A stretch of DNA of 39,179 nucleotides, from positions 1-39,179 of the IMG/VR virus record IMGVR_UViG_3300047494_000192; one strand, written 5' to 3'. Source of the DNA: a virus. The stretch's first letter is position 1. Every line of letters begins with the position of its first letter. Made by a program: the position numbers and the translations under genes. Below the pieces are notes generated by a model. The model saw only the letters and a list, made by a program, of their open reading frames with translations, had not been told where the DNA came from and searched no databases. Below, in pieces: positions 35,417-39,179 of the stretch.

Positions 35417-36025
35417 TCAAGCGGCTCTCACATTGCCGTGCAGCACAGTCAAAAGCGGGAGGTTGCGCAGCTTTATCCAGCCGGCGATCTCTGCATAGCG
35501 GTAAAGCGATTCGCAGACCGCGTCCTTGAGCGTGCGCTGATCGACCCGCAGACGGTCAGCAGCCTGACGCGGACCTTCATTGTCCACCACCAGCGCAAAG
35601 GTCAGCTGGCAGTAGGTCAGGCCACGCGGGCCGATGATTTTGGACTGTTCGGCGCGCCAGGGTGTGTAGCGTTCCCGGTATGCGACGCCGAGCAGGACAG
35701 GCCAGTCATTGGAACCGCCGGAGACGGCACCGTAGCGGCTTGTGCGGCAGTGCAGCTCGCATCCCACGGCCTGGAAGACGCGGGCGATCTCAGCGGCCGC
35801 CTGGAGCTGCTCCGCCCCCATCTGACCGCGATCAAACATGCGCTGTGCCACGTCGCTCGCGGCCTTGCGGATCGTCTCTGGTGTGGCGTTGGACGCCAGC
35901 TCGGCATCGCGCACGCGCTTGTCGAACTCCTGGCGTTGCGCGCGCTGTGCATCGGCAGCCTTGATGCGCGACCATTCGGACTGGTGTTCCGCAACCAACG
36001 CCGCGCCGTGTGACTGCCGTGACAT
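35417..36025 (-). CDS. putative phage regulatory protein with C-terminal helix-turn-helix
   Basis: 202 aa with a perfect AAGGAGG 6 nt upstream. The N-terminal 90 residues are charged helices (EWSRIKAADAQRAQRQEFDKRVRDAELA, then AEQLQAAAEIARVFQAVG about 77-94). The C-terminal part (GLTYCQLTFALVVDNEGPRQAADRLRVDQRTLKDAVCESLYRYAEIAGW, about 136-184) looks like a helix-turn-helix preceded by a small helix, an arrangement seen in DUF6456-like and sigma/late-activator-like phage regulators. Placed between replication genes and packaging operon, it could turn on late transcription. The TGTTAC boxes upstream may be its own or another regulator's sites. Confidence 0.45.
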   Translation of the reverse strand: MSRQSHGAALVAEHQSEWSRIKAADAQRAQRQEFDKRVRDAELASNATPETIRKAASDVAQRMFDRGQMGAEQLQAAAEIARVFQAVGCELHCRTSRYGAVSGGSNDWPVLLGVAYRERYTPWRAEQSKIIGPRGLTYCQLTFALVVDNEGPRQAADRLRVDQRTLKDAVCESLYRYAEIAGWIKLRNLPLLTVLHGNVRAA

Positions 36026-36037
36026 GCCCTGCCTCCT

Positions 36038-36274
36038 TGTTACGCCTGTTACGGAAATTGTTACTATCTAACTCTATGATATATATATATTATATTATTA
36101 CAGTAACAGTAGTAACAGGGTAACAGCCCTTTTTGCCTAAAGGAGAGTTTGGCAGAATCGGGGTGTTGAGAGACTTGCTTAGGGAAATGGGCAAAATCCT
36201 GTTACGGCTGTTACGCCGTTGATTTGACAGGTAACAATCTAAAAGTGCGATTGTTACCCGCTGTTATGTGTTAC
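36038..36274. promoter_or_regulatory. cluster of TGTTAC/GTAACA boxes around an AT-rich core; candidate origin or operator array
   Basis: TGTTAC occurs at 36038, 36047, 36059, 36200, 36209, 36252 and 36269 (plus TGTTAT at 36262); the reverse complement GTAACA occurs at 36103, 36112, 36120 and 36231. Three forward boxes and three reversed boxes face each other across a 38-bp AT-rich core (36065-36102) containing alternating AT runs. Box spacing is repeatedly 8-9 bp. The region separates the helicase gene from the regulator gene. Iterons plus an unwinding element next to primase and helicase suggest a replication origin; overlapping promoter elements also allow an operator array. Confidence 0.6.
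36089..36117 (-). promoter_or_regulatory. possible promoter of the regulator gene
   Basis: On the minus strand TATAAT lies at 36094-36089. With a 17-bp spacer the -35 position falls exactly on a TGTTAC box (36112-36117), a poor match to TTGACA. A promoter here would need an activator bound to the boxes, or the boxes may be repressor sites. Three more boxes would lie in the leader. Confidence 0.3.
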
Positions 36275-36279
36275 GCGCT

Positions 36280-38133
36280 CTAGGCGCTGGACCACTCCTC
36301 TGCCGGCGGATCAGGCGGGTCTTCGAGCTGCAGATCCACCGCGCTGACCCAGATGGCGCGGGAGCGGAAGTCGCCAAAGGCCACGACCCGATCGAAGGTT
36401 TTCGCAGACGGCATTTCGCGCAGCGCGATCTGCCACCGTGTGCCGGCCCATTCGGAATTAGTGAACAGGCCCGCGAGCTCACGGCTGCCGGTGGCGAAAA
36501 AGATGCCGGCACCGTCAGCGCAGCGGGGCGCGGGGAGAGGTTCGTCCGCACGGATGACACGTATGCCGATCCGCTGAAGGCTGTGGCGGGCGACTTCCAC
36601 GCTGATCCGCCTGTCCGCTTCCAGCGCCGGCAGGCTGGCTTTCAGACATGTGCCCATCAGGCCGGCAATGGGCTCACGGTCCGTGCTTCGATCCAGCATG
36701 ACGGCATAACTGAGAAGATACTGCGCTAGGCGGCGGGAATTGCCTTCCTGCCGCACCACGTCCGCCGTGCGCACCAGTCCGGCGAGCGCCAGGATGCCGG
36801 TGGACAGGCCGCGTGCATCGGGCAGGCCTTCATGCGTCAGGATCCACCACCCGGCCAGGATGGCGCCCATCTGGTCCATCTCACGGGGCGCGCAGCCGGC
36901 ATCCTGCAGTTCCTTGCGGAACGCAGTGATACAGGCCTGGTAACGTTCCCAGGCACCAAGCGCGCGCCCCCAGAGCTGGGCCGCCACCGTACGCATTTTG
37001 GCGATGAGCTCCTGGTGCTTGTCCTTGTAGTCCTCGCCATTGTCCGGCGGCATCATCTCGATGACGGTGATGCGGCCGAGATGCGTGTCCTTCATCGGCG
37101 GCGCGGCGGTGGCGGCCATGATGAAGCTGGCGACCATTTCGATGGTGCGCGTGCCGCCATCCGACGTGCCGCGGGATCCGCGTGTGCCGGCGCCGCCGGT
37201 GGCCGTCAGCAGCAAGTCGAGGAGCTGCTTGGCGTTGGTGTCGTCACCGGTCTTTTCGTTCTCATCCAGGAAGCACGGCATGGCGCGGCCGTTCAGGCGC
37301 CCGATGGTGCCGGCGGCGGTGGTGTCATTCAAGAACGTGTTGAGCGGGCAGCAGGCGGCCAGCACTTCCAGCAGGCTGGACTTGCCGCATCCCGCCGGCC
37401 CTACCAGAAAGCAGGCACTGCGCCATTTCGCGGCCGCGCCGAAATAGGCGGTGCCGAGCACGCCCAGGACGGCGATTGCACTGCCGGCCTCCCGGAAGCG
37501 GAACAGGTTCTGGATGTCCGTCTGCAGCTCGCACGCTATGCTCGCATCACATGCGCCCTCGGGGCGCGGGACAGCAGCCTGGGCAGCCCAGAAGGTATTG
37601 CCGGAGCGTTGGCCGGCCGGGCGCCACTCCGTGCCTATGCGCACCATGTCGCCGCAATGGACGGCCGGGAAGAATTCACTCTCGGGCCACACGCCAGGGC
37701 CACGGAAGACCAGGTGCTCGCCAATCATGCCGGCTTCAAAGGCGAGGCTGCCAAGATGGGCGGCGGCTTTGTTGAGGATGAAGTCCACCACCAGCTCATC
37801 GGTGACTTCGGTGCCGTCTTCGGCCTGTTTCTTGACCTGGACTGTTTTCGGAAATTTCCAGCGCAGCCAGCGATCGTTGTGCCCGAACAGGCTCAGCAGA
37901 TCGTGCCGGCTGCCGAGCTGGCGCGCGGTGAGGTCGCGCCGCTGGCCGGCGCGATCCAGGAAGACGTATGTGCCACCGATATGGCCCACGGGCGTGACGG
38001 GGCAGCCGGCTTCGTCGGGTGAGTGCGTGTCCGTGGGCGGGGGTCCTTTGCCACGTCCGCCCTCGATGACGGACAGCGCGCGATCGGCGCCGGCGACGGC
38101 CGCGCGGATGTTGTCCTTGCCGCGCGCGGTCAT
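36280..38133 (-). CDS. P-loop replication protein, helicase-like (phage DUF927/D5-type)
   Basis: 617 aa from the ATG at 38133, which overlaps the preceding stop (ATGA). The N-terminal 200 residues contain GGTYVFLDRAGQRRDLTARQLG and a WLRWKFPKT segment. The ATPase part has a Walker A VGPAGCGKSSLLEVLA (about 244-259), Walker B CFLDENEKTGDD (about 287-298) and a sensor-like MVASFIMAATAAPPM. This order (long N-terminal domain, then superfamily-3-like ATPase) is seen in phage and plasmid replication helicases. With the Toprim primase upstream it would unwind the origin. No zinc finger is visible. Confidence 0.75.
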   Translation of the reverse strand: MTARGKDNIRAAVAGADRALSVIEGGRGKGPPPTDTHSPDEAGCPVTPVGHIGGTYVFLDRAGQRRDLTARQLGSRHDLLSLFGHNDRWLRWKFPKTVQVKKQAEDGTEVTDELVVDFILNKAAAHLGSLAFEAGMIGEHLVFRGPGVWPESEFFPAVHCGDMVRIGTEWRPAGQRSGNTFWAAQAAVPRPEGACDASIACELQTDIQNLFRFREAGSAIAVLGVLGTAYFGAAAKWRSACFLVGPAGCGKSSLLEVLAACCPLNTFLNDTTAAGTIGRLNGRAMPCFLDENEKTGDDTNAKQLLDLLLTATGGAGTRGSRGTSDGGTRTIEMVASFIMAATAAPPMKDTHLGRITVIEMMPPDNGEDYKDKHQELIAKMRTVAAQLWGRALGAWERYQACITAFRKELQDAGCAPREMDQMGAILAGWWILTHEGLPDARGLSTGILALAGLVRTADVVRQEGNSRRLAQYLLSYAVMLDRSTDREPIAGLMGTCLKASLPALEADRRISVEVARHSLQRIGIRVIRADEPLPAPRCADGAGIFFATGSRELAGLFTNSEWAGTRWQIALREMPSAKTFDRVVAFGDFRSRAIWVSAVDLQLEDPPDPPAEEWSSA

Positions 38134-38297
38134 GCAGGGACCAGCAGCGAACGCAGGTGGGCGATAACATCGGTCACCGCTACGCGCGCGGTATCCCGGC
38201 TGATCTCGCATTCTTCGATGTTGCGCATATAGCCTTCAAGAAACACTTCGAGTGACTTCATCCTCGAAATCAAGACGTTGATCTCTGCGGACGTCAT
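38130..38297 (-). CDS. small protein between primase and helicase genes
   Basis: 55 aa from the ATG at 38297, which overlaps the primase stop (ATGA), and it overlaps the helicase start in the same way. It is a single long helix with mixed charge (EINVLISRMKSLEVFLEGYMRNIEECEISRDTA). The two 4-bp overlaps and the absence of any gap make it a real gene of the replication operon. It may be a small adaptor of the primase-helicase complex; no family is recognised. Confidence 0.6.
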   Translation of the reverse strand: MTSAEINVLISRMKSLEVFLEGYMRNIEECEISRDTARVAVTDVIAHLRSLLVPA

Positions 38298-39179
38298 CCC
38301 ACCCTCAGACAATCGTTGAAATCCTTGCCGATCGGCGCGCGGGCCAGGCGCACGTCCGCGTGGCGGGCGGTGAACCGGTTGACCACGCGCTGCAGGGCGC
38401 CGGCGGCGGCAGCGTTGCCGCCATCGTTGTCAGCCAGGATCAGCACGCGGCCCATCTGCGGCGGCAGATCCACGCTCGCCATGTTCGAGAGCGACACACC
38501 GCAGATCACGCGCAACTCCGGGCACGCCACGGCGACGGACAAGCAGGTTTCTATCCCTTCGCCGATGGCCACGGGATCGCCCTCCGGCGCGTCGCGGAGC
38601 GGCTTGTTGGAGACGCCGCGGCGCAGGCGAATGGTGCCGCCACGCATCACGCCCAGGCACTTCTTGGCAGCGCGCAAGGGCGCCTTACCCCACGCGCCAT
38701 TACGCTCCGCCAGCCAGGTGCGATGCGTGGCCACGTGGCGGCCGTCCGCATTGGTGATGGCGGCGATCAGCGCCGGCAACGGCCGGTCAAGCTCCGCGCA
38801 ATAGCAGGCTGGATGGAATCGCAGCGCGCGCGGCTGGTGGCCGAGCTGGCGAAGATCAATCTCCCGGCCGCGGAGATACAGATCCGCCGGTGTATCAGCC
38901 AGACCGGGCCGCGCTTCCAAATACAGGCGCAGTGCGGCGCGTTCGCGGTTCGCGTCATCCTCGTGCGGCGCCCGGGCGTCCAGGGGCTGGACCACGCGCG
39001 GCGGCGCCAGCGTGATGCCGTGGTTGCGGACGCCGCCCGGGAGTTCCAGGCCGACGCCGGCGGCAAGGAATCGCACGGCATCCACGAAGCTGGCCCGCTG
39101 CGTGGCCATGACGAATTCGATGGCGTCACCAGACGCGCCGCAGCCGAAGCAGTGATAACCGTTGTCATAGACAGGAAAG
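38294..39179 (-). CDS. CHC2/Toprim primase (5' end beyond the window)
   Basis: The frame is open to the right edge: upstream of the first internal Met (39109) it reads YHCFGCGASGDAIEFVM, the second half of a CHC2 zinc finger, so the true start lies outside. The 294 visible residues include a linker, then a Toprim domain with GEGIET (glutamate of the catalytic site) and VLILADNDGGNAAA (DxD-like aspartates), and a C-terminal FTARHADVRLARAPIGKDFNDCL. The enzyme makes RNA primers on phage DNA. It heads the replication operon and overlaps the next start. Confidence 0.88.
   Translation of the reverse strand, partial: FPVYDNGYHCFGCGASGDAIEFVMATQRASFVDAVRFLAAGVGLELPGGVRNHGITLAPPRVVQPLDARAPHEDDANRERAALRLYLEARPGLADTPADLYLRGREIDLRQLGHQPRALRFHPACYCAELDRPLPALIAAITNADGRHVATHRTWLAERNGAWGKAPLRAAKKCLGVMRGGTIRLRRGVSNKPLRDAPEGDPVAIGEGIETCLSVAVACPELRVICGVSLSNMASVDLPPQMGRVLILADNDGGNAAAAGALQRVVNRFTARHADVRLARAPIGKDFNDCLRVG

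Follow-up and report, generated by a model that had tools for sequence, protein, structure and literature searches.

A box array behind a phage helicase gene is a probable replication origin of the P4/PICI type

The origins of phage-inducible chromosomal islands (PICIs) consist of two iteron sets around an AT-rich region, lie 3′ of rep and are functional when cloned (PMC6092414). That source stated in 2018 that this organisation is common to PICIs and occurs in no other known bacterial replicon (PMC6092414). According to PMC7581432, Rep of the Staphylococcus aureus pathogenicity islands (SaPIs) uses its C-terminal domain to read iterons that lie immediately downstream of the rep gene; Cch2 of the staphylococcal cassette chromosome mec (SCCmec) binds iterons just behind the gene that encodes it, and its putative origin holds only three of them. 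In PMC4234260, the minimal replicon of the crenarchaeal plasmid pRN1 is described as needing sequence downstream of the replication protein gene. The type 1 repeats annotated in ori and crr of the deposited P4 sequence are spaced by 9–10 bp, with 43 bp between them and the inverted repeats. Here, we describe an array of TGTTAC boxes at positions 36038–36274 of a 39179-base viral contig (IMG/VR record IMGVR_UViG_3300047494_000192; the whole stretch is called the window), next to the gene of helicase P0001. We conclude, with a probability of roughly 90%, that the array is a phage replication origin of the P4/PICI type.

An exact search on either strand found 13 TGTTAC boxes in the whole window, 11 of them within 36038–36274; shuffling the window gave an expectation of 3.78, and 13 or more were reached in none of 100 shuffles. 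The array had a cluster score (ln P) of −61; when the window was shuffled 100 times with dinucleotides preserved, no 6-mer cluster scored better than −19. Within the 500-bp stretch holding the array, the commonest 6-mer occurred 11 times, compared with at most four times in 30 shuffles. These counts bear out the original prediction, made from the sequence alone, of eleven TGTTAC/GTAACA boxes around a 38-bp AT-rich core, with five further boxes and one near-match following towards the helicase stop. The repeated 8–9 bp spacing that it also described is present inside the inner clusters, and 12 bp occurs in the outer one: along the array, the spacings are 9, 12, the core, 9 and 8, then 80, 9, 22, 21 and 17 bp. 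The last box (36269–36274) is separated by 5 bp from the helicase stop at 36280. Seen from the helicase gene, the elements are as follows, with the start of each box given.

36231–36274: cluster A, boxes at 36231 (− strand), 36252 (+) and 36269 (+), and the near-match TGTTAT at 36263
36200–36214, + strand: cluster B, two boxes (36200, 36209), 9 bp apart
36126–36199, strand not applicable: B–C spacer, which separates the two half-origins
36103–36125, − strand: cluster C, three inverted GTAACA boxes (36103, 36112, 36120; spacing 9, 8)
36065–36102, strand not applicable: AT-rich core, 38 bp, 13% GC, presumed unwinding element
36038–36064, + strand: cluster D, three TGTTAC boxes (36038, 36047, 36059; spacing 9, 12) on the outer flank of the core

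Clusters C and D lie 44 bp apart, start to start, and the cluster A box at 36252 lies 43 bp from cluster B.

As in PICIs and SaPIs, the array is placed immediately 3′ of the helicase gene (5 bp), and its clusters C and D flank a GC-poor core. A cognate origin read by the Rep C-terminal domain, as reported in PMC6092414 and PMC7581432, has a putative counterpart here, supported by covariation. In contrast to those elements, the window belongs to a phage, its 39 kb including terminase, portal, capsid and baseplate genes, and so is not a PICI satellite; it has a separate Toprim primase and a helicase (phrog_21086) without Pfam assignment, and its array comprises four clusters in two mirrored halves. 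P4 ori1/crr, the sites of gp alpha, share the boxes 9–10 bp apart, the 43-bp gap and the inverted boxes, the corresponding values in the window being 8/9, 44 and 12/9; the P4 word, GGTGAACA, partially fits the family profile N-G-T-N-A-C. However, the P4 function is split over two sites, with direct 120-bp repeats, and its primase and helicase are fused in one alpha protein (PMC7145576), whereas the window has separate genes, P0003 and P0001. The SCCmec helicase Cch is the nearest full-length fold to the window helicase (5dgk, Z 17.0), although the latter has no sequence-level match to DUF927 or HTH_56. pRN1 differs in being archaeal.

To follow the array through relatives, we used 263 loci, of which 262 were scored, picked solely by the presence of a P0001 relative (three of the scans for relatives each kept the best 80, out of at least 509 in the first, 267 in the second and 86 in the third). 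A close-relative search with the single helicase yielded one locus, and two later single-protein scans yielded one and six, mostly known already. The array finder accepted any locally clustered 6-mer without a fixed word, and an array was called at a score below −30. The 262-locus count excludes L001, L002, L008, L208–L216 and the pattern loci L089–L200, and some contigs are present in it twice under different locus numbers. An array accompanied the helicase in 201/262 loci, compared with 2/262 at the best other place of the same locus; at a looser cut-off of −25, the numbers were 217 and 8. Near-duplicates (85% identity) were removed after this count, which reduced the 217 arrays to 150. Of these, 73 lie within 250 bp of the helicase gene, 71 farther downstream and six upstream, and the median array has 11 boxes across about 250 bp.

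Synechococcus phage MinM1 and phage-plasmids of Phaeobacter and Leisingera have their primase, helicase, gap, small gene and terminase in the same order as the window, and MinM1 and contig L003 each carry 12 TGTGAG boxes in the same gap and the same arrangement. The original prediction had named a loss of the boxes in relatives that keep the flanking genes as the observation that would speak against it; what we found is that the letters vary while the layout is kept. There are 58 distinct registered hexamers among 93 oriented arrays, with the profile N-G(0.70)-T(0.58)-N-A(0.72)-C(0.73). The layout is thus conserved across relatives, and the box word drifts. The genes after the array are unrelated among relatives: an HTH-like (helix-turn-helix) gene, P0002, in the window and a NusG/RfaH-like one in MinM1 and Leisingera. 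In the latter two, the antiterminator directly follows the origin (L004:6952–7581 in MinM1; L009:7014–7733 in the Leisingera phage-plasmid), a position which suggests that late-operon control begins there.

The conserved geometry reads, from the helicase, as cluster A, a gap, cluster B (8–9 bp), a spacer, cluster C (8–9 bp, opposite direction), a gap and cluster D (12, then 9–11 bp), and cluster D keeps its place and spacing in relatives. The C–D gap peaks at 42 bp, start to start. The A–B gap likewise peaks at 42 bp, and the array therefore consists of two mirrored modules. A template of B, inverted C and, about 42 bp away, D was fitted by 93 of the 150 non-redundant arrays; when spacings and strands were shuffled within arrays (200 shuffles), 5.9 arrays fitted on average and 13 at most. 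The remaining 57, with poor template fit, were dropped from the covariation, gap-GC and tract analyses. Single arrays with a C–D gap near 31–32 bp (L021, L358) suggest that helical phase matters. Mean GC over the 93 arrays was 0.335 in the C–D gap, 0.450 in the A–B gap and 0.614 in the B–C spacer, against 0.651 for the loci; the C–D gap was below its locus mean in 93/93 and the lowest of the gaps in 77/93.

Asking which protein reads the boxes, we compared box-word distances with protein distances by partial Mantel tests on the 93 arrays (499 permutations). The genes concerned, whose positions agree with those of the original prediction, are the following.

36280–38211, − strand: helicase P0001, 643 residues, phrog_21086, AAA+ domain at about residues 216–480
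36322–36765, − strand: helicase C-terminal domain, residues 483–630, presumed box reader, with a β-hairpin at 604–623
38294–39178, − strand: primase P0003 (CHC2 zinc ribbon, DUF7146, Toprim), partner in the replication module
35417–36025, − strand: P0002, HTH-like, the gene after the array, which does not encode a general binder of the boxes

With the other domains removed, the helicase C-terminal domain correlated with box distance (r = 0.274, p = 0.002, the permutation floor). The N-terminal domain, with the rest removed, did not (r = 0.021, p = 0.34), and the AAA+ domain showed no positive correlation (r = −0.157). When the primase, found in 83/93 loci, was added, the C-terminal domain retained r = 0.257 (p = 0.002). 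The box word therefore depends on the helicase C-terminal domain, and the covariation supports a cognate pair of initiator and iteron word with specificity in that domain, which presumably binds the boxes directly. At the level of residues, position 611 is Lys or Arg in 63/68 helicases with G at box position 2 (G2) and in 6/25 without it (Fisher 1.7e-10, rank 1 of 8200 tests). On the helicase tree, residue 611 and G2 change together on six branches, out of 13 and 15 changes in total (P 1.3e-4). Of the eight residues with the strongest co-change, four (609, 611, 618 and 620) fall within the hairpin 604–623 (hypergeometric 1.1e-4). Residue 175 (W/H) was rejected as a word determinant; it correlates with the word, yet seems to mark one clade.

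The original prediction could identify no initiator gene. The presumed initiator is the adjacent helicase itself (36280–38211), and it had been missed for that reason; the box words track its C-terminal domain. Among the six neighbouring window proteins scanned, none was a Rep-type initiator. An AlphaFold2 model built from 57 aligned helicases (predicted local distance difference test score, pLDDT, 87; predicted template modelling score, pTM, 0.79) has as its best full-length fold match the SCCmec type IV helicase Cch (5dgk; Foldseek E 4.8e-9; VIA Z 17.0, 428 aligned residues, root-mean-square deviation 5.6, model residues 66–632). MCM helicases over the AAA+ part (Z up to 16.4) and the SaPI5 primase-helicase (Z 14.4) come next. 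P0001 would be a self-loading initiator. The C-terminal domain modelled alone (pLDDT 89) ends in two helices and a β-hairpin, a winged-helix-like order; no confident fold match was obtained for it, so the name winged helix is taken from the helix and hairpin pattern. By sequence, P0001 has no Pfam family, searches of Pfam, NCBIfam and solved structures returned P-loop-type matches only, and neither DUF927 nor HTH_56 was matched in the 57 family members. One helicase relative (L046:3473–5689) carries an N-terminal FtsK gamma winged-helix domain (residues 10–67, E 2.2e-19), a DNA-reading domain fused onto a phage helicase.

From these observations we infer a mechanism in which the helicase C-terminal domain would bind the boxes. 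Clusters C and D, which are inverted and separated by about four helical turns, and the mirrored A/B half would jointly hold helicase rings in place around the core, probably as two hexamers face to face. The AT-rich core would then melt, the helicase would load itself, and the phage primase would start synthesis.

Several results weigh against this origin reading. At threshold, 61/262 helicase loci have no array, among them the Phaeobacter and Leisingera phage-plasmids, whose boxes are degenerate (L007 scores −16.6; L009 has none in place). About half of the arrays (77/150) are not immediately behind the helicase gene. The co-change of residue 611, second of 8200, fails correction when taken alone, and the window helicase is itself an exception to the rule, with Ala at 611 and G in its box. 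For the C-terminal domain alone, Foldseek returned nothing at E ≤ 0.001, and the best VIA matches, DUF1528 and a pCW3 relaxosome protein, were weak (Z 4.9). Sequence profiles gave no link from the helicase to Cch/DUF927 (hhalign probability 0.5 to a DUF927 protein), and hhalign of the helicase against Cch-like and VapE-like neighbours gave no confident match.

One alternative would keep the origin but assign its reading to the primase or to a host factor, with the helicase recruited later. Primase distance does correlate with box distance when the N-terminal and AAA domains are accounted for (r = 0.152, p = 0.002), but the correlation disappears once the helicase C-terminal domain is included (given the whole helicase, r = 0.041, p = 0.22, n = 83), which makes this explanation very unlikely. 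The original prediction had offered an iteron origin or a cooperative operator, and only the first of these is supported here. As an operator or late-promoter control region, the array would be bound by P0002, which it immediately precedes, or by another regulator, and the NusG/RfaH-like gene in this place in two relatives means that late transcription may start nearby. P0002 homologues, however, occur in just 10/262 helicase loci, against arrays in 201/262, and the box words track the helicase C-terminal domain, so that we regard an operator as highly improbable. A pac/cos packaging site, with the small terminase as its binding protein, would fit the terminase genes close to the array in several loci, and the pac site of phage P1 likewise has repeated hexamers. 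Yet it is the helicase with which the boxes covary, and the equivalent sites of P4 and PICIs are origins; the terminase control detected a terminase in only 11/92 loci with the seeds used, and we consider a packaging site barely plausible. A partition centromere with parS-like iterons, suggested by those relatives that are circular phage-plasmids with ParA/ParB, can be given almost no weight, as the par genes of pP11_f lie about 10 kb from the array and the box word tracks the helicase.

The replication origin that we favour is ordinary in principle for the P4/PICI type, but its placement in full phages is new. Its geometry is conserved, its words drift, and residue 611 is a first candidate for setting specificity. 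We found no paper in the open-licence literature describing this organisation in full phages, and the arrays contradict the PICI-only statement of PMC6092414. Satellites and phages are thereby given a common replicon type. The layout makes origins findable by sequence, as an array near a helicase gene with its own word in each phage; to our knowledge, the origins of most temperate phages are unmapped. Because the geometry is conserved and the words drift, initiator–origin specificity becomes directly testable, and a few β-hairpin residues are predicted to set the word.

The module appears to extend beyond this helicase family. A DNA pattern of the half-layout with TGTTAC matched 112 stretches among viral contigs, where chance would give about none (our estimate, from 24 fixed bases). 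Only 4/112 carry the window's helicase family, and 38/112 have a VapE-like primase-helicase gene, mostly 53–112 bp from the array. In the examined part of the 74 other stretches, single cases near the array include DUF927 with a Cch HTH domain (L124), DUF5906 (L102, L133, L142) and a PrimPol-AAA protein (L106). Together with the P4 annotation, these stretches indicate that the module is apparently common to several self-loading helicase families. Four of them (L119, L135, L143, L146) have two TGTTAC half-origins each, in opposite orientation and about 90–130 bp apart, both matching the strict pattern.

In relatives, the B–C spacer holds a further element, an alternating purine-pyrimidine run of at least 12 nt in 83/93 arrays (for example L294, L233 and L030; the median of all is 20), compared with 0.9% of same-length control stretches. 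In 75/93, the whole locus has no longer run of this kind; the tract consists mainly of CG and CA/TG steps. The tract also adjoins 38/109 TGTTAC arrays from the half-layout pattern search. It is absent from the window (longest run 4 in 36126–36199), from P4 and from the window's close relatives L003, L010, L014, L017, L379, L384 and L385, and the B–C spacers of the window's own clade showed no common element. The obvious guess is that the tract may form Z-DNA under supercoiling; a single search of the open-licence literature brought up no paper linking Z-DNA to origins of this kind. Tentatively, and with less than even confidence, we would propose a very widespread origin class of complete phages and satellites, with two mirrored ~42-bp modules used by phrog_21086, VapE-like, DUF927/Cch and DUF5906 helicases. 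Each helicase would have its own six-letter word through an amino-acid code in the C-terminal β-hairpin, with Lys/Arg 611 for G2 as its first entry, and the Z-DNA-prone tract between the halves would serve the origin as an element that responds to supercoiling.

On its minus strand, the window has genes for the terminase (TerL), the portal, the major head protein, the tape measure and the baseplate, a head and tail set that marks it as a tailed phage, probably contractile-tailed. The primase gene is cut at the record end, and the phage genome is therefore incomplete on that side. No integrase or repressor was noticed among the window proteins scanned. The nearest relatives in genome contigs (n = 11) are in Asaia, Swaminathania, Gluconobacter, Acetobacter, Saccharibacter and two uncultured bins, hosts which we take to be all Acetobacteraceae. 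The phage-plasmid relatives were dropped as proof of plasmid replication, since pP11_f of Phaeobacter gallaeciensis has its own ParA/ParB, another HTH gene and a degenerate array. This 40-kb phage-plasmid also has, next to the phage genes, genes for a LuxR regulator and for an acyl-homoserine-lactone synthase (L216:36445–37718).
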